This document shows positions 5,392-20,385 of a DNA stretch of 20,385 nt, one piece after another. Position 1 is the stretch's first letter; each line of letters starts with the position of its first letter. This stretch comes from a virus: IMG/VR virus record IMGVR_UViG_3300026197_000016, positions 1 through 20,385 of that record; one strand, given 5' to 3'. Under the pieces are notes generated by a model. The model had not been told where the DNA came from, did no database searches, and saw only the letters and a list, made by a program, of their open reading frames with translations. Position numbers and translations under genes: made by a program.

Positions 5392-6381
5392 ATGACCCCA
5401 CAACACGCCAAAACCTGCGACCACAACCACAGCAAAGAAGAAAAGCTGATAAGCGACCCGGGCAAATCCAAATACCTTGAGCAGCTGGCCCAGGCCGCGG
5501 AGAATGTGGACCCTACCCGTACCAAAACCCTGCGGCGGGATTATATGGCGGCAGCTTACAAGCGCTTCCGGCATTTGAAGGGCCTAATACGCAAAGCAGT
5601 GGTCGATTTAGACGTGTTCGAACTGGGCCAGGGGCCGCAAAGCCAGCTTGCAGAATTGCCCGACAGAGGGGATTTTGTCTTTAAAACAGATGCCGAAAAG
5701 GTTGATGTTTTTAGCAACTGGTTGGACGGCAGGCTAAAAGAAGGCATTTTAGAACCGCCTGAGCAATTTCCCGACCGCTGGCAAAAGCAGTACGTACGCA
5801 GGGCCTATAATAGCGGTGTCAGGCAGGCTCAAAGAAAAATGCGGCAAGCCGGCATGGACGTACCACGGCTGGGCCGGGCAGAATTCCGTAATATCTTTAA
5901 CCAGCCTATCCATAAGCAAAAGCTGCAATTACTTTATACGCGTAACTTCAAGGCGCTCAAAAACATAACAGATGAAGTGGACGGCCAAATTAGCCGAGTT
6001 TTAACCAACGGGCTTTCCCAGGGGTTTAACCCGCGCAAAATGGCCAGGCAGCTAAATAACAGGGTGGACAAGATAGGCATAACCCGCGCCCGGACTATGG
6101 CAAGGACAGAGACAATATACGTCCATAACGAGGCAGCGCTAACCCGCTACGAACAGATGGGCGTTGAAGAAGTGTCCGCAAAGGTGGAATGGTTAACCGC
6201 AGGCGATGCCAGAGTTTGCCCGGAATGTTCGAGCCTTTCCGGCACAAAGTACACAATAGAAGAAGCCCACGGCTTGATACCTTTACATCCTAATTGCAGA
6301 TGTTGCTGGGAACCGGCAACTTTCCACAGACAGGCTTTTAACGGAGGTGAATTATGGCTAACAAAAAGATACCAAAGTTAG
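5392..6381 (+). CDS. MuF/SPP1 gp7-type minor head protein
   Basis: 329 residues. The N-terminal two thirds is helical and basic; the C-terminal third is the Mu F-type domain: RTMARTETIYVHNEAALTRY (around residues 234-253), WLTAGDARVCPECSSLSG (around 267-284), and a terminal HPNCRC block (around 302-307). The CPxC and CRC cysteines with His suggest a zinc site, as is usual in this family. These proteins bind the portal and are packaged in small numbers; in SPP1 gp7 affects DNA delivery. The RBS before 5392 is poor (CGGGGGCC), suggesting translation following the portal gene. The last 28 bases overlap the next gene. Confidence 0.88.
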   Translation: MTPQHAKTCDHNHSKEEKLISDPGKSKYLEQLAQAAENVDPTRTKTLRRDYMAAAYKRFRHLKGLIRKAVVDLDVFELGQGPQSQLAELPDRGDFVFKTDAEKVDVFSNWLDGRLKEGILEPPEQFPDRWQKQYVRRAYNSGVRQAQRKMRQAGMDVPRLGRAEFRNIFNQPIHKQKLQLLYTRNFKALKNITDEVDGQISRVLTNGLSQGFNPRKMARQLNNRVDKIGITRARTMARTETIYVHNEAALTRYEQMGVEEVSAKVEWLTAGDARVCPECSSLSGTKYTIEEAHGLIPLHPNCRCCWEPATFHRQAFNGGELWLTKRYQS

Positions 6382-6881
6382 ATAGAGCAATGTTAGTGGA
6401 AATGGTTGATCACTTTGAAGCTGAAAACCGGCGCGGCCAGGTTTACCAGGCCAGCCACGTTTTTAGCGCGGTGGCGGCGGGTGGCAGCAAAAATGTACTA
6501 ATAATTGCAGGCGACCAGCCGCTCTTCATTTCAGTTGTTGTAAAGTCCACAGTTAAGACAGAGATTAACCCCTTTAGAGGAACCACAGTTAGCGCAAACG
6601 GCAGCGCCCTTGACGTTGGCCCCACTTGCATAAACGAAATCGAAACAACCAGCCCCACAGCGGAAATGTATCAAGGACCAACAATAGATTCGGACGGTAC
6701 TGAACTGCCGAGCGAATTTATCCCGGGTGGCGGCAAACAGAACGCGGAAATAGGTGGGGAAGCCAGCGTTGTAATGAATTATATTTTTGCTGCCAACACA
6801 AATCACTTAATCAGGGTGACAAATTCTACAAGTGGTTCGGAAGGGGATTTCCATATTAAGGCAACCTGGGTAGAGGGATAA
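6354..6881 (+). CDS. Beta-rich head-module protein of unknown function
   Basis: 175 residues, starting within the MuF gene with GGAGGTGA upstream (6342-6349). An N-terminal helical segment (residues 1-35, DRAMLVEMVDHFEAENRRG) is followed by alternating strands: FSAVAAGGSKNVLIIAG, FISVVVKSTVKTEINPF, a Gly/Ser-rich stretch around residues 112-136, and a C-terminal VVMNYIFAANTNHLIRVTNS...FHIKATWVEG. This pattern suggests a compact beta-sandwich or jelly-roll, such as a capsid spike or decoration. I do not recognise a named family. It sits between the MuF protein and the protease, a slot often used for accessory head proteins. Confidence 0.6.
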   Translation: MANKKIPKLDRAMLVEMVDHFEAENRRGQVYQASHVFSAVAAGGSKNVLIIAGDQPLFISVVVKSTVKTEINPFRGTTVSANGSALDVGPTCINEIETTSPTAEMYQGPTIDSDGTELPSEFIPGGGKQNAEIGGEASVVMNYIFAANTNHLIRVTNSTSGSEGDFHIKATWVEG

Positions 6882-13555: not shown

Positions 13556-13755
13556 TATGGATTTTGCACGAAATGAATTACACCTTAACCGGCCCCAACT
13601 CAATGTTCAATCTCATGGAAGGGGATTTGGAATATTTGGTCGAAGTCTACAACCAGATGCACGGCCAGGGGGCCGGTGAATCACCTCGAGAGAAGTTGCG
13701 CAGTGGCGACAAAAAGCTAATTGAGAGGGTGAAAGACAAATATGGCCGAAACTAA
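13163..13755 (+). CDS. Tail assembly chaperone, -1 frameshift fusion (GT-like)
   Basis: After the slippery A AAA AAG, the -1 frame reads GTC from 13531 without a stop through the end of the short form and on to TAA at 13753-13755, adding about 74 residues to the first 123 (about 197 in total). The T part contains NYTLTGPNSMFNLMEGDLEY, LVEVYNQMHGQG and ends IERVKDKYGRN. It has no good start of its own: the first possible start in this frame is a TTG at 13564 with no RBS. The end overlaps the tape measure start (13742). The fusion is expected as a minor product that recruits the tube protein. Confidence 0.75.
13525..13531 (+). promoter_or_regulatory. Programmed -1 ribosomal frameshift site A AAA AAG
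   Basis: The heptamer is in the correct phase (codons AAA 13526-13528, AAG 13529-13531 of the short form) within a run of eight A. A GAGG at 13514-13517, about 7 bases upstream, could act as a stimulatory internal Shine-Dalgarno. No obvious downstream pseudoknot or strong stem was seen. Confidence 0.78.
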
Positions 13756-16700
13756 ACAAGTAGGCGTACAGGTTGGAGGTAACGCCGCAGGCTTTAATAG
13801 TGCCATAATGGGCGCGCAGCGTAAGCTCAGTACGTTCAAAAAAGCTGCCCTGGGCGTTACCGCCGCCGTTGGAATTGCAGCTGGCGCAATGGGCGCTAAG
13901 AGTGTTTCTGCAGCTGCTGACTTCCAAGGCGCAATGACAGAATCCGTTGCTATAATGGATAATGTTTCCGACAGTATGCGCAATGACCTGGCCGAAGCCG
14001 CCCGGGAAGTTGGCCGAACCACAAAGTTTAGCGCCACAGAAGCGGCCGAAAGTATATATTACCTGGCCAGTGCTGGCATGGATGCCGCGGAATCGGAAGC
14101 CTACCTGGCAGATATGGCCAAGTTTGCCCAGGCAGGTAACTTTGATATGGCAAAGGCCACAGAACTGGCCACCGATGCCAATAGCGCCCTGGGCCGACAA
14201 ATAGACCAGATGCCCGCCCTTATGGATTCCCTGGTACAAGCGGAATCCGATGCCAACGCAACCACAGAGCAGTTTTCCGAAGCCTTAACCAACAAAGCAG
14301 CCCCGGCAATGAACCGCCTTGGAATTGGCATGAACGAAGGTATAGCTTTGTTGGAAGTATTTGCAGATGCCGGGCTTAAAGGACGGCGCGCAGGAACCAT
14401 CATGGCCAGGACTCTAGAGGGCCTGGAAAAACGCGCCCGGAAGAACAGCGATGTATTTAAAGAATTGGGCGTACAGGTGTATGACCAAAACGGTGAAATG
14501 CGCAGCACAATAGATATAGTAAAAGACCTGGAAAACGCCTTCGAGGGCATGAGTACGCAGGAAAGACAGGCTGCGCTGGAAAAAATGGGCTTTAACGACA
14601 GGGCAATGCAAGGGCTTGACTTGCTTTTGGGCAATTCCGAAGCCCTGGAAGAATATTACAAAAAGCAAAAACAGGCAGGCGGCAAAGTTGACGAAGTTGC
14701 CAGCAAGCAGATGCAACACTTCAACGCCCAGATGGGCCTGATGGGCGATAACATAAACGATATATTTATTGGAATTGGGAACAAAATGCTGCCCGGCTTA
14801 ACCGATCTACTTAAAAACGGCCTTGTACCAACAACCCAGGAACTCTCTAAAATAGTTGAAGAATCCGACAGCTTTATAGGCTTTTTAGACAAAGCAAGTG
14901 AACAATGGCTGCCAGGCATGAACACAGAATTTAAGCGCCTTTGGAATGAAGGTGGCGGCAACTTTGTCGGTATGTTGCGGCAAGTAGGCCGCGAGCAGCC
15001 AGCTTTCCAGGGCGCGCTTAACGCAGTTGCCGGCGGCATTGAAGCCGTTGCGAACTGGTTTGATAGAGTAGACTGGCAGCACCAAAAAGAACAAGCCCTG
15101 AACATGGCCGGCGATGTTGGAGAGGAATTTAGCGCCCTGGGCCAGACAATTTCTGACGCTTTGGGCAACCTTACAGGGTTTGAACCAAAGGCCGGCATAG
15201 ACTTTAAGTGGGATATTGAAACCGGCCTTGGAGAAGCGCTGGAAAAAGAATTTGGCATTGGTCAACAAGAAGCCGGCACGGCGGCAGCTGGCATACGCAG
15301 CGCGGTATTTGCTTTCATAACGGGCGGCACAGGCAGCGTATTCCTGGGGGCTTTGGCCGCCACAGTGGGCGTAAACCTGGCCGCAGAGCCGACAGTTAAG
15401 TTTGCCAGTGACCTAAAAACCGCGGTTATGAGCAATAAATCCGCGGAAGAACTAAAAAATCAAGGCGTTGATTTTGGCAACTTGCCCTTTGACGTCTGGC
15501 CGGTTGTTAAGTTCGGCCGCAATATCAGAAAGGCAGTGCAAGAAGAGGACACCTGGCAAACCCTTAAAGAAGTTGATATGCCGGGCAAGTTAGATTTAAT
15601 TATTGACCCCGTAATTGGCTTTTCACAAAAGCTTGCGGCAGCTGCAAAAAGCAGCCAGCCGGTTGAGGACTTCCAGCAAATTGATCTTGGGGCCATAGAC
15701 GTTTTAATAGACCCGCAAATAGAATTCGGTCAAGATTTAGCGACCGCGGCAAAAAGCACAAAGCCCATGAAAAGCCTGGTTGATGTTGGAATAGAACATC
15801 CTGTCAAATTAACGCTGGGCCTGGCAGGGGCCGGTGCAGGAATTTGGTGGGCCGGCGGTAAGGCCGCCGCTGCGGCAAAAGGCGCGGCCGGTTTGGTTTC
15901 CACTATTGTTTCTACCATACCAGCCACGTTAGCCCTGGGGGCTTTGGCAGCAACCGCAACTATAGGAATTACCATTTTAGATAAAAAGATAACTTCCGAG
16001 GAAACCGAATATGACGACTTTGCAGGCTGGGCCGAAAAGACGTTTGAAACCGAAATGCCGGACAGCATGGAACATACCGTAAACCAAATATGGCTGCAAG
16101 CAAAGCAGTTAAGCCTTAAGCAAATTTTCCAGGATATTTCTGATGCCTGGGAAACCTGGGAAAACGAAGGCCCGCCCTGGTCAAATATCAATTGGAACGA
16201 AACTTTTCACCCACCGGATTGGGCGCAGGATATTAACTGGGGCGAAATACCTTGGATGGATATTATAAATCCATTTCAAAAAGATGACTGGCCCGACGTA
16301 ATATCTGATTGGCCAGGATGGGATGCAGTTGCAAAAATTGGTAGCCTGGGCAAAAGCGCCTGGAAAACTTACGTTGGATGGCCAGGCTGGAAAACCCTTG
16401 ATGACTGGATTTTCCCCGAATGGGGCAAACTGGCAGACATAGATAACGTAAATTGGAAACAATTTACCAAGTTTGAGGGCTGGGCAAACTTACTCGAAAG
16501 TGTAACCTGGCCCGGCTGGGGTGAGCTATTCCCGGAACTGGCAAGCGTTGACTGGCAGAAGTGGACGACTTTTACCGGGTGGGCAAATTACATAGAAGCA
16601 AACTGGCCCGGCTGGAAAGAGCTTTTTGGCATCAACCAGATTGATTGGAATAAATGGACAAGTTTTAAGGGCTGGGCAAACCTGGTAGGCGATTTTGACA

Positions 16701-17797
16701 AGTGGCCGGGCTGGGATTGGGCCAACGTAGGCCCGCTTAAGCTGGGTGACTGGGTAGAAATTGCCTGGAATAAAGCAGCCGAAAAGTGGCCCGGCTGGGA
16801 AACCGTAATTGGCACAGTTGATCCCTTTAACCTGCGCGACAAAGTAAAGAAAGTAGGCAAAAACGCCTGGAAAAAATTGATGAACTGGCAGGGTTGGGAG
16901 ATTGCGGGCATTGACCAAATTGACTGGAAGCAATACACCATTTTTAAAGGCTGGAAACAATACATTGACGCCCAATGGCAGGGCTGGAAGCAATTATTTG
17001 GAATTAAGAAAATAGACTGGGCCAGCTTAACAACCTTTGACGGCTGGCAGCAATTATTTAAAGATGCTGAATGGCCGGGCTGGCAGGCGCTTTTCCCGAA
17101 GTTGTCAAAAGTTGATTGGGGTAAATTTGCCAGCTTTGACGGTTGGAAAGAAATCTTTGCTGATGTTCAATGGCCGGGCTGGGCAAACTGGATAGACCCC
17201 GTTGACAGCTGGAAAGATTTAATTGGCTGGGATAACTGGAAATCAATCTTTCCGGAATGGCCGGGCTGGGATACTTTTATGAACTTAACCCCAAAAATCA
17301 ATTTTGGTATAGATGTGCCAGATCTGCCGCCCTGGTTACAATGGATTTGGAACAACGCCCGCGGGGCCTTTGGGGCTGCCGTGAACAGAATTTGGGGCGG
17401 TGGCGGGAATAACAACAACAATGACCAAGGCGAAGGCCACCAAAGCGGAACGCCATGGACAGGTTCTGGGCCGCGCGACCAAATTGCCGGATTCGTCCAC
17501 AACCAAGAAGCCGTAATTCCTTCAAACGTACTTAGAGGCGGCCCAGGGCCTATCCTTGATTTCCTTGGGTATAACCCCGGCCAGGGCAGCCTGAACCAAG
17601 AATCCGGGCGAATTGCCGGCAAATTAGACAAAATAGAGCAAAACACTGCCAAAGTTGTGGAAAAATTAGAGGCAGTGGCCGGCGGTGATGGCGGCCAGAT
17701 TACAGTTGATATTAACGGCATTACCAGCCTGGAAGAAGTGCTGGCCAGGATAACCGAAGAATGGGATGACCAGCGCAGAGCAAAGGGGGTAGCATAA
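13742..17797 (+). CDS. Tail tape measure protein with Trp-rich repeat array
   Basis: 1351 residues. The N-terminus (about 1-380) is TP901/phage-tail-minor type: a hydrophobic start, then ADFQGAMTESVAIMDNVSDS, AESIYYLASAGMDAAES and a long helical region with GIGMNEGIALLEVFADAGLKG. Hydrophobic, membrane-like stretches lie around residues 520-548 and 690-746. Residues about 543-681 contain imperfect repeats of about 36. From 857 to 1176 there is an array of WPGW/WQGW repeats. The end has a Gly/Asn linker (GGGGNNNNND) and a typical C-terminal block VHNQEAVIPSNVLRGGPGP. GAGAGGGTGA precedes the ATG. By the usual 1.5 angstrom per residue the tail would be near 200 nm if the whole chain is extended. 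Confidence 0.9.
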   Translation: MAETKQVGVQVGGNAAGFNSAIMGAQRKLSTFKKAALGVTAAVGIAAGAMGAKSVSAAADFQGAMTESVAIMDNVSDSMRNDLAEAAREVGRTTKFSATEAAESIYYLASAGMDAAESEAYLADMAKFAQAGNFDMAKATELATDANSALGRQIDQMPALMDSLVQAESDANATTEQFSEALTNKAAPAMNRLGIGMNEGIALLEVFADAGLKGRRAGTIMARTLEGLEKRARKNSDVFKELGVQVYDQNGEMRSTIDIVKDLENAFEGMSTQERQAALEKMGFNDRAMQGLDLLLGNSEALEEYYKKQKQAGGKVDEVASKQMQHFNAQMGLMGDNINDIFIGIGNKMLPGLTDLLKNGLVPTTQELSKIVEESDSFIGFLDKASEQWLPGMNTEFKRLWNEGGGNFVGMLRQVGREQPAFQGALNAVAGGIEAVANWFDRVDWQHQKEQALNMAGDVGEEFSALGQTISDALGNLTGFEPKAGIDFKWDIETGLGEALEKEFGIGQQEAGTAAAGIRSAVFAFITGGTGSVFLGALAATVGVNLAAEPTVKFASDLKTAVMSNKSAEELKNQGVDFGNLPFDVWPVVKFGRNIRKAVQEEDTWQTLKEVDMPGKLDLIIDPVIGFSQKLAAAAKSSQPVEDFQQIDLGAIDVLIDPQIEFGQDLATAAKSTKPMKSLVDVGIEHPVKLTLGLAGAGAGIWWAGGKAAAAAKGAAGLVSTIVSTIPATLALGALAATATIGITILDKKITSEETEYDDFAGWAEKTFETEMPDSMEHTVNQIWLQAKQLSLKQIFQDISDAWETWENEGPPWSNINWNETFHPPDWAQDINWGEIPWMDIINPFQKDDWPDVISDWPGWDAVAKIGSLGKSAWKTYVGWPGWKTLDDWIFPEWGKLADIDNVNWKQFTKFEGWANLLESVTWPGWGELFPELASVDWQKWTTFTGWANYIEANWPGWKELFGINQIDWNKWTSFKGWANLVGDFDKWPGWDWANVGPLKLGDWVEIAWNKAAEKWPGWETVIGTVDPFNLRDKVKKVGKNAWKKLMNWQGWEIAGIDQIDWKQYTIFKGWKQYIDAQWQGWKQLFGIKKIDWASLTTFDGWQQLFKDAEWPGWQALFPKLSKVDWGKFASFDGWKEIFADVQWPGWANWIDPVDSWKDLIGWDNWKSIFPEWPGWDTFMNLTPKINFGIDVPDLPPWLQWIWNNARGAFGAAVNRIWGGGGNNNNNDQGEGHQSGTPWTGSGPRDQIAGFVHNQEAVIPSNVLRGGPGPILDFLGYNPGQGSLNQESGRIAGKLDKIEQNTAKVVEKLEAVAGGDGGQITVDINGITSLEEVLARITEEWDDQRRAKGVA
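15370..15785 (+). repeat. Imperfect 36-residue repeats in the tape measure protein
   Basis: Residues about 543-681 contain four related units. Each has a strand like 'D/EPxVxFxxxL' followed by a helix with Ala/Lys and a turn before the next 'VD/ID'. Examples of the core are EPTVKFASDLKTA, WPVVKFGRNIRKA, DPVIGFSQKLAAAA and DPQIEFGQDLATAA. Divergence is high; this is seen in protein rather than DNA. Confidence 0.6.
16310..17269 (+). repeat. Tryptophan-rich WPGW repeat array in the tape measure protein
   Basis: Over about 320 residues (857-1176) the tetrad W-P/Q-G-W occurs eleven times (nine WPGW, two WQGW). Six FxGW motifs and several (I/V)(D/N)W(K/Q/N)K(W/F/Y)T-like strands alternate with it. 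A typical unit is 'xWPGWxxLFxxxxxIDWxKWTxFxGWxxx', about 28 residues. At DNA level the core TGGCCCGGCTGG or close variants recurs. Function unknown. Confidence 0.85.
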
Positions 17798-17799
17798 AT

Positions 17800-18360
17800 A
17801 TGGCACATAATTTTACGCTAGGCAGCAAAACTAACGAAGATTTGAATATTTCTATGCTAAACTCACCGCGGGAAGCCTTGCCTGAGGTCATAGGCAAAAT
17901 AGAGGAAAACCACAACCGCCCGGGCGGCCATGACTACGGCGGGGATTATGCGGGCTTGATAATCAAGCTGGAATGTTATTTCACAAGGGCCGGTCATGAG
18001 GAAAACTTGCAAGAGGATATTCGGGCTTTAACAGACCATTTAACAAACAATGAAGGCAGGCCCCGGGAGATGGATTTAACCTTTCCAGCAGAGCCCAATA
18101 AGACCTATTCAATTAGATATGACGGCAGTGGATTGCAAGTTGAGCGCGGTTTAAGCAGCAACCAGGGGGAGTTCACTTTAACACTAATTGCGGTTGACCC
18201 GCGCGCAAAAGCACCAGAGGATAAAATTACACAGAACGTGTCTAGCTCGCCAGAGAAAATTGAACTGGTCAATAGTGGCAATATAAACACGCCATTTAAG
18301 ATGGAAGTCACTAATAAAGGCGACAGCCAAATTAGTGGCATAACGATAGAACTCATGTAG
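17800..18360 (+). CDS. Distal tail (Dit)-like protein
   Basis: 186 residues, starting 3 bases after the tape measure stop. Position right behind the tape measure gene is that of Dit, the hub at the tail tip. The sequence shows an N-terminal strand (MAHNFTLGSKTNEDLNISML), a DYGGDYAGLIIKLECYFTRA strand block, a helix (EENLQEDIRALTDHLTNNEG), a PNKTYSIRYDGSGLQVE strand and FTLTLIAVDPRAK, followed by a short C-terminal beta part. This is the N-terminal Dit ring-domain order (strand-helix-strand-strand). The C-terminal extension is short (about 45 residues), so no large carbohydrate-binding insertion is present. Confidence 0.72.
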   Translation: MAHNFTLGSKTNEDLNISMLNSPREALPEVIGKIEENHNRPGGHDYGGDYAGLIIKLECYFTRAGHEENLQEDIRALTDHLTNNEGRPREMDLTFPAEPNKTYSIRYDGSGLQVERGLSSNQGEFTLTLIAVDPRAKAPEDKITQNVSSSPEKIELVNSGNINTPFKMEVTNKGDSQISGITIELM

Positions 18361-18372
18361 AGGAGTGGTATC

Positions 18373-18762
18373 ATGGCTTTTTCAGATTATTTGGCCAACA
18401 ATGTATTGGATGAAATCTATAATCAGGGGGATTTTACCCCACCAAGTTCTCTATACGTTGCGCTTTATACGGACGACCCGGGTGATGACGACACTGGCAC
18501 AGAAGTGGACGCCCCAAATTACAACAGGCAGGAATGTACGACCGCTTTTTCCGCGGCGTCCAGTCGTAGCGTAGAAAACGATACGGAGATATTATTTGCT
18601 GAAGCCGGGGAAAGTTGGGGGTTAGTAACCCACGTTGGAATACGGGATGCCGCAACAGGCGGTAACCTTTTAGATCACGGGGCTCTTCCAGTTGAGAAGC
18701 AGGTTGATGAAGGGGACCAGCTCCGCTTGAAACCGGGCGATATTGTTTCTTCTTTGAGCTAA
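18373..18762 (+). CDS. Tail tip/fibre-associated protein (small appendage family)
   Basis: 129 residues, with AGGAGTGG as RBS. It follows a well-recognised phage pattern: SDYLANNVLDEIYNQGDFTPP, SLYVALYTDDPGDDDTGTEV, then PNYNRQ at around 49-54, a WGLVTHVGIRDAATGGNLLD segment (around 81-100), and a C-terminal GDQLRLKPGDIVSSL strand. Members occur in tail-fibre regions of many phages, and the motif 'YvaLyT.dP...dtGtEv....Y.R' is characteristic. The exact role is unknown; assembly or attachment of the adhesin is likely from its place next to the DGR target gene. Confidence 0.7.
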   Translation: MAFSDYLANNVLDEIYNQGDFTPPSSLYVALYTDDPGDDDTGTEVDAPNYNRQECTTAFSAASSRSVENDTEILFAEAGESWGLVTHVGIRDAATGGNLLDHGALPVEKQVDEGDQLRLKPGDIVSSLS

Positions 18763-18772
18763 GGGAGGCAAA

Positions 18773-20287
18773 ATGACTAAACCATACAAAACTAATAACG
18801 CTGTAAAGGCTGATTTAAACTCAGACTTTGCCCACGGGACCGACACCAAAATTACCCCTTCCAGCACAGCGGACTTCCCGGATGAAGGCGGCTACATTAT
18901 GGTAGAAGACGGGGTGGAGTGGGCAATCTACGAGTACACAGGCATATCCGGGGGCGACCTCACAGGATTACAGCAAGGACAAACACGCAACGAATCAACC
19001 TCTAGTCATACCTTTTCGAGTTCCGACAGTACAGTACACCTACGGGTAACAGCTGGATACCTCAATGACGTAATAGATAGGTTAAGCGATGCGCAGATTT
19101 TAGGTATAGAATTTAATCAAACCCAAGACACCTGGCAACGTATAGATCAGTTCGGCAACGCAGTAGAGCGGACAACAGGAGAACTCGCTGAAATGCCTCT
19201 TTTTAACGAGATAACGCGGGTAGTGTTAGACAGCAACGGTAATGAGGTAGCAGAATGGGAAGACGACGATTATTCCCACGCCCCTGCGGATAAATCCCAT
19301 AACGTCTTTGCTAGGTTTGGAAAACGCTGGCAGAGGCGAGAAGTGGTGACTGAGGGCGGCGATAGGATATTCCGCTGGTGGCTGGCGAACTACTCGGCAA
19401 GTGGATTTTCTCTGAATCCTACTTTTAAGTACGGCGGCAGTGAGCGCCAGTACGCTTATATCGGAGCTTACAACGCTTGTGCGTATTCTGACGATGGAGG
19501 AACAACCTGGTATTTAGGTTCACGTTCAGGCGTTACTCCAGCTCACGGAAATGGCGATTATTCAGGCTTAGACGGAAACACATTAAGCCACTTTGACATT
19601 GAGGAAGCTCGTCAGTATGCTCAAAATATAGGAACTGGATTCCAGCTATACTTACCATGGACACGTGGTCTCTATACGCTTATGAATCTGATATACTGGG
19701 GAGCACCAGACCTACAAAGTCTACTGGGGCGAGGAGTTGTTGATCTAGCAAGCGGTACTGGCTATGCGGGCAAGGACACAGGAGCGGATAGTATAGATAG
19801 TCAAATAGACAATCCAACTTTAACTGGCACAGGGACAGGCACGGATGGGGAGACGCCAATCTGCTCGTTAGGAGTCTCTTCGCCTTACGGTTTAATCTGG
19901 GAATTTATCGACGGTTACGAAGCTGTAGACGCGGGATATAGAATTTTATCAAGGGATAGCTTTAGCGGAATCGGGCCACCTAACTGGACGTCCTCAGATT
20001 ATGAAGTTAGTTCGGCAAGCCCCTTAACCGACGACGATGGATATATTAGCGACCTGGAAGATGAGGAACTATTGAATCTGCTGTTTATCCCCAAGGCAAC
20101 AGCTGGGAGCGATTCAACGTACATACCAGACTATCTATACAGCCACGATTCAGGCGAGAATAATATCTTGCTATCGGGCGGCAACTGGGATGATGGCTCG
20201 CAGGCGGGTCTCAGCTTCCTGCTTTCGCCTGACGTCGTCGGGTCTTCGAACCGCACTTACGGCGCTCGCCTGGAGTTCATCGGTTAA
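18773..20287 (+). CDS. DGR-diversified tail adhesin (C-type-lectin-like target protein)
   Basis: 504 residues, with GGGAGG upstream. Residues 1-90 are a small beta module; a helical/linker part follows (TAGYLNDVIDRLSDAQ, around 92-107). From about 180 it follows the pattern of known DGR target proteins: NVFARFGKRW, YAYIGAYNACAYSDDGG, SRSGVTPAHG, a helix HFDIEEARQYAQNIGTGFQL, WTRGLYTLMNLIYWGAPDLQ, GRGVVDLASGTG, then a GLIWEFIDGYEAVD block. The end is the variable region: NILLSGGNWDDGSQAGLSF then SSNRTYGARLEFIG (464-504). This fold displays varied residues for receptor binding. Codon usage here is less GGC/GCC-rich than in the head genes, hinting at separate origin. Confidence 0.9.
   Translation: MTKPYKTNNAVKADLNSDFAHGTDTKITPSSTADFPDEGGYIMVEDGVEWAIYEYTGISGGDLTGLQQGQTRNESTSSHTFSSSDSTVHLRVTAGYLNDVIDRLSDAQILGIEFNQTQDTWQRIDQFGNAVERTTGELAEMPLFNEITRVVLDSNGNEVAEWEDDDYSHAPADKSHNVFARFGKRWQRREVVTEGGDRIFRWWLANYSASGFSLNPTFKYGGSERQYAYIGAYNACAYSDDGGTTWYLGSRSGVTPAHGNGDYSGLDGNTLSHFDIEEARQYAQNIGTGFQLYLPWTRGLYTLMNLIYWGAPDLQSLLGRGVVDLASGTGYAGKDTGADSIDSQIDNPTLTGTGTGTDGETPICSLGVSSPYGLIWEFIDGYEAVDAGYRILSRDSFSGIGPPNWTSSDYEVSSASPLTDDDGYISDLEDEELLNLLFIPKATAGSDSTYIPDYLYSHDSGENNILLSGGNWDDGSQAGLSFLLSPDVVGSSNRTYGARLEFIG
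20162..20287 (+). repeat. DGR variable repeat (VR)
   Basis: The 3' end of the adhesin gene, starting at AAT of residue 464. Its first 18 bases match the downstream template copy at 16 positions. Adenine is rare here (about 16 of the last 116 bases), as expected after repeated adenine replacement. The right border, where the initiation-of-mutagenic-homing element would lie, cannot be fixed because the template copy is cut off. Confidence 0.8.
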
Positions 20288-20367
20288 CGGGATACAGAAT
20301 GCAGTTGGAAGTGTTAATCAATATGGCAAATTTTAATCAGGGTAGTACGGAGTTAGGGTATATAGGC

Positions 20368-20385
20368 AATATCTTGCAATCAGGC
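20368..20385 (+). repeat. Start of DGR template repeat (TR), cut by the window end
   Basis: AATATCTTGCAATCAGGC matches 20162-20179 (AATATCTTGCTATCGGGC). The two differences are A to T (20378 versus 20172) and A to G (20382 versus 20176), each with A in this copy. Homology begins abruptly at this base; the 80 bases between the adhesin stop and this point (20288-20367) show no convincing gene. Only 18 bases are visible. Confidence 0.75.

Follow-up and report, generated by a model that had tools for sequence, protein, structure and literature searches.

The right end of a phage contig very probably carries the left half of a diversity-generating retroelement that targets a tail protein

The window, meaning the whole 20,385-bp stretch of DNA analysed here, is a complete and linear IMG/VR record that holds the structural module of a tailed phage: terminase, portal, a Mu-F-like head protein, a major capsid candidate, tape measure, the distal tail protein Dit, a Gp80-like protein and, at the right end, a gene for a 504-residue protein that is the subject of this analysis. 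The last of these genes lie on the plus strand, with Dit at 17800–18360 (phrog_202, E 2.6e-16), the Gp80-like (podophage GP4 fiber I) protein at 18373–18762 (PF23140, E 6.7e-39) and the 504-residue open reading frame at 18773–20287, the last confirmed as first described. The nearby Dit gene places this protein at the tail tip. No Rfam family, tRNA or tandem repeat was found; the 1351-aa tape-measure protein (13742–17797) does contain an array of tryptophan-rich repeats (WPGW..., FxGWxx), whose divergence puts them beyond the reach of a tandem-repeat finder. At the other end of the window, upstream of the terminase genes, a DUF5131 gene (1114–1830; phrog_2045) weakly resembles a radical SAM mobile-pair protein.

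The 504-residue protein belongs to the phrog_5302 tail proteins (E 2.4e-31), and its AlphaFold2 model, built with 28 homologs, reaches a pTM of 0.78, with pLDDT mostly between 65 and 95 beyond residue 100 and residues 1–95 poorly predicted. When the model was compared with the PDB by Foldseek, the top structural match was TaqVP, from a Thermus aquaticus prophage (PDB 5VF4; E 2.4e-12), followed by five variants of the Bordetella phage protein Mtd, including 1yu4 (E 0.002–0.03), with Treponema TvpA ranking tenth. A sequence profile of the family likewise gave TaqVP (E 5e-6) as its sole PDB match below 0.001. TaqVP is an FGE-type C-type lectin whose variable repeat (VR), some 40 residues long, lies at the very C-terminus (PMC6328139). 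The window protein has a candidate VR of the same size and position, and its model places this VR in a C-type-lectin fold, apparently of the FGE type. The two proteins are nonetheless only 18% identical, and TaqVP consists of a single domain, whereas the window protein is extended at its N-terminus by a region that the model predicts with low confidence. Mtd, from phage BPP-1, is also a tail protein with a C-terminal VR in a C-type-lectin fold, although its match to the window protein is structural only (11–13% identity). These are targets of diversity-generating retroelements (DGRs), and many accounts describe phage DGRs that act on tail proteins with a C-type-lectin fold (PMC8144416, PMC7290462, PMC6328139). 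Hence the gene at 18773–20287 is a candidate DGR target encoding a probable receptor-binding tail protein with a C-terminal C-type-lectin domain.

Near the 3′ end of this gene, the 18 bases at 20162–20179 (AATATCTTGCTATCGGGC) recur at 20368–20385 (AATATCTTGCAATCAGGC), 206 bp downstream, with 16 of 18 identical in direct alignment. Both mismatches have adenine in the downstream copy (20172 T versus 20378 A, and 20176 G versus 20382 A), so that codon 467 reads CTA (Leu) in the gene and CAA (Gln) in the copy, and the change in codon 468 (TCG/TCA) is silent. In all these particulars the preliminary description, which had proposed a DGR from this repeat, was exact. The copy, which we read as the beginning of a template repeat (TR), is separated from the stop codon by an 80-bp non-coding spacer (20288–20367). 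Because the record stops at 20385, the putative TR is cut off after 18 bp and the window contains no reverse transcriptase (RT) gene. Published practice asks that at least 75% of the mismatches between TR and VR fall at TR adenines (PMC8144416); in the window the count is two of two, over 18 bp only.

It is worth considering that so short a repeat, at the very end of a record and with only two mismatches, could be a chance duplication or a contig-end assembly artefact beside an ordinary C-type-lectin tail fibre. By our own estimate with equal base frequencies, about 1e-5 matches of this quality are expected within 400 bp; from the rate of such pairs in the window itself (48 in 7.7 million, a number that includes many genuine repeats), the expectation is about 0.002. 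The adenine rule adds little when only two mismatches are available, as 11 of the 48 comparable pairs obey it too. Nonetheless, a search of the whole window for the last 18 bases gives only 13 of 18 as the next best match, and one would not expect an artefact of assembly copying to show differences at two of 18 positions, both of them adenines. The copy also has the register and spacing that the relatives lead one to expect, and the gene departs from the relatives' templates mostly at adenine columns, as described below. We regard an origin without any DGR as very improbable.

A search with the single protein found no close relatives in viral or genome contigs, and a profile search yielded 27 viral and 15 genomic loci. 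Among these, the closest relative of the window target is in L147 (IMGVR_UViG_3300033145_000568), a 61.6-kb viral contig whose target is 41% identical over 406 aa. Unlike the window, L147 has its TR and RT complete: the VR lies at 6294–6406, the TR at 6493–6605 and an RT with a GNYLSQ motif at 6741, and of the 20 mismatches between the two repeats 19 have A in the TR. The two VRs have near-identical ends (NILLxGGNW...RLEFIG) and the geometry is closely shared, with a VR-to-TR offset of 199 in L147 versus 206 in the window and a repeat that begins about 80 bp past the stop codon in both (6414 and 6493 in L147; 20287 and 20368 in the window). In addition, the 18 bases at the window's end align with the start of the L147 TR and with that of another relative, L202 (GCGATATCCTGC). 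The BPP-1 DGR has the accessory gene avd; in contrast, no open reading frame of at least 80 aa lies between target and RT on the coding strand of L147. The interval between TR and RT there (6606–6740) is predicted to fold more stably than its composition would suggest (−45.4 kcal/mol, z −2.87) and is closed by a long helix, GCGGGGAG/CUCCCCGC; it matches no Rfam family and may belong to the DGR template RNA.

Comparison with the complete DGRs of relatives allows the VR of the window to be delimited and its history to be read. The last ~39 codons of the window target align with the relatives' VRs and TRs, gap-free to ten of the TRs; the gene carries, as a DGR target should, a VR at its 3′ end, spanning codons 464–502 (20162–20278), its 3′ limit being set by the relatives. 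We restricted the comparison to columns where at least 70% of the relatives' TRs agree; the window VR differs from these TRs at 14 of 25 consensus-adenine columns and at 9 of 50 other columns (Fisher p = 0.0013), a contrast biased somewhat towards adenine by the A-mismatch-forgiving score with which the TRs were picked. A second test depends less on that choice of TRs. Ten codons are AAT or AAC (AAY) in at least seven of the ten relatives' TRs, and at these the window VR encodes N, D, D, Q, L, P, D, S, N and T, keeping a pyrimidine (C or T) as third base in 9 of 10, which is as expected when the two adenines mutate and the third base is copied. Overall, the window VR departs from the relatives' TRs mainly at adenines. 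The end of the repeat is informative as well. At the IMH position of L147, the VR ends GGAGTTCATAGG and the TR GGAGCTCAGGG, a T-to-C difference that recurs in most close relatives (GAGTTC or GAATTC in the VR, GAGCTC or GAACTC in the TR). The end of the window VR, GAGTTCATCGG (20273–20283), resembles that of L147 and is a putative IMH element, its function assigned by analogy; the corresponding TR end lies beyond the record, where the T-to-C change in L147 and most close relatives predicts GAGCTC.

The same arrangement recurs over a considerable distance. DGRs of this architecture are known in crAss-like phages (PMC7290462), and two such phages, cr6_1 and cr10_1, have a C-terminal target domain homologous to that of the window, the order target–TR–RT with an annotated RT directly downstream, and mismatches that are A in the TR at 21 of 21 and 17 of 17 positions, in agreement with a DGR in the window. 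Their targets differ from the window protein in being only ~30% identical over the C-terminal 140–160 aa; crAss-like phages belong to another phage order than the window, and the genes of cr6_1 contain in-frame TAG codons. Across the relatives with at least 1.5 kb of downstream sequence, an RT lies within 1.5 kb downstream in 32 of 40; in cr50_1 it is upstream of the target, and the remaining seven (L083, L085, L160, L178, L181, L182 and L187) have no RT in the stretch examined. A complete Oceanotoga phage genome (OR420712) has a target homolog and no RT, and since the RT-less seven include a complete phage genome, the target alone is no proof of a DGR. No RT was found among 42 records with terminase relatives and 50 with Gp80 relatives, which indicates that these genes do not track the DGR. 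In L210 the target gene is downstream of the RT (at about 5529) rather than upstream; cassette order therefore varies within the group.

These counts bear on a second alternative, in which the element has decayed, so that a TR fragment and a once-diversified VR remain, the RT is lost or broken and the gene is no longer mutated. The RT-less seven give this idea precedent, and the RT of the window phage would lie outside the sequence seen. Against it stand the 32 of 40 comparable relatives that keep an RT, the intact reading frame of the window VR, and the visible 18 bp of the TR, which differ from the VR at adenines only and show no decay. We consider decay unlikely, if somewhat less so than the absence of any DGR.

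Taken together, the predicted fold, the VR–TR–RT order of the homologs, the VR-to-TR offset and the adenine-dominated mismatches support the DGR proposed in the preliminary description, and we are highly confident that the window closes, at its right end, with the left half of a phage DGR whose target is the 504-aa tail protein. The RT half is absent, the assembly having broken off before it. The element is truncated and of the usual phage type, within a large and well-described group; its RT, the rest of the TR, homing, receptor binding and any activity are inferred. If so, the RT gene would lie some hundreds of bases past position 20385; reverse transcription of the TR transcript would introduce errors at adenines, and the error-bearing cDNA would replace the VR, by the mutagenic retrohoming known from other DGRs (PMC8144416). 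The outcome would be a variant ligand-binding face of the C-type-lectin domain at the tail tip, with altered host binding.

A search for an RT (RVT_1) found none in the 20,385 bp of the window and recovered the enzyme in 3 of 3 DGR-bearing crAss-like phage genomes; its absence is thus informative for the window and says nothing about the missing part. No record continuing past 20385 was found, an exact pattern 5′ of the TR giving no match, and an RT profile scan and adenine-tolerant TR search of the relatives' loci returned distant relatives only. One match to the adenine-tolerant TR pattern, in L082, is a chance hit in an unrelated phage gene, and one match to the VR 3′ end pattern, in L143, lies in a record without an RT. 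Two records, L002 and L009, come from nearly the same phage as the window, with proteins mostly 99–100% identical; the parts of L002 searched contain no copy of the target, the 4.4-kb L009 record is wholly from the terminase-to-head region, and no second strain covering the window VR was found. The other genes of the window have no detectable match in the 12.6 kb around the L147 target. Since the two phages have, over the stretches compared, the target gene and no other detectable gene in common, we suggest, tentatively and with a little less than even confidence, that target, TR and RT may move together as a cassette among tail modules that are otherwise unrelated.

The analysis identifies the protein with which an uncultured tailed phage probably binds its receptor, together with the part of the binding face that is expected to vary. 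DGRs have been surveyed at large scale in genomes and metagenomes (PMC8144416), and those cut in this manner would escape surveys based on the RT; a contig that ends inside an adenine-richer second copy of the 3′ end of a tail gene is a usable sign of such an element. In four relatives, L086 (MT836662), L170, L171 and L186, the target matches stop at most 20 bp from the end of the sequence, much as the window ends inside the TR; assemblies may break at such places owing to the DGR repeats or to the hypervariability of the VR.
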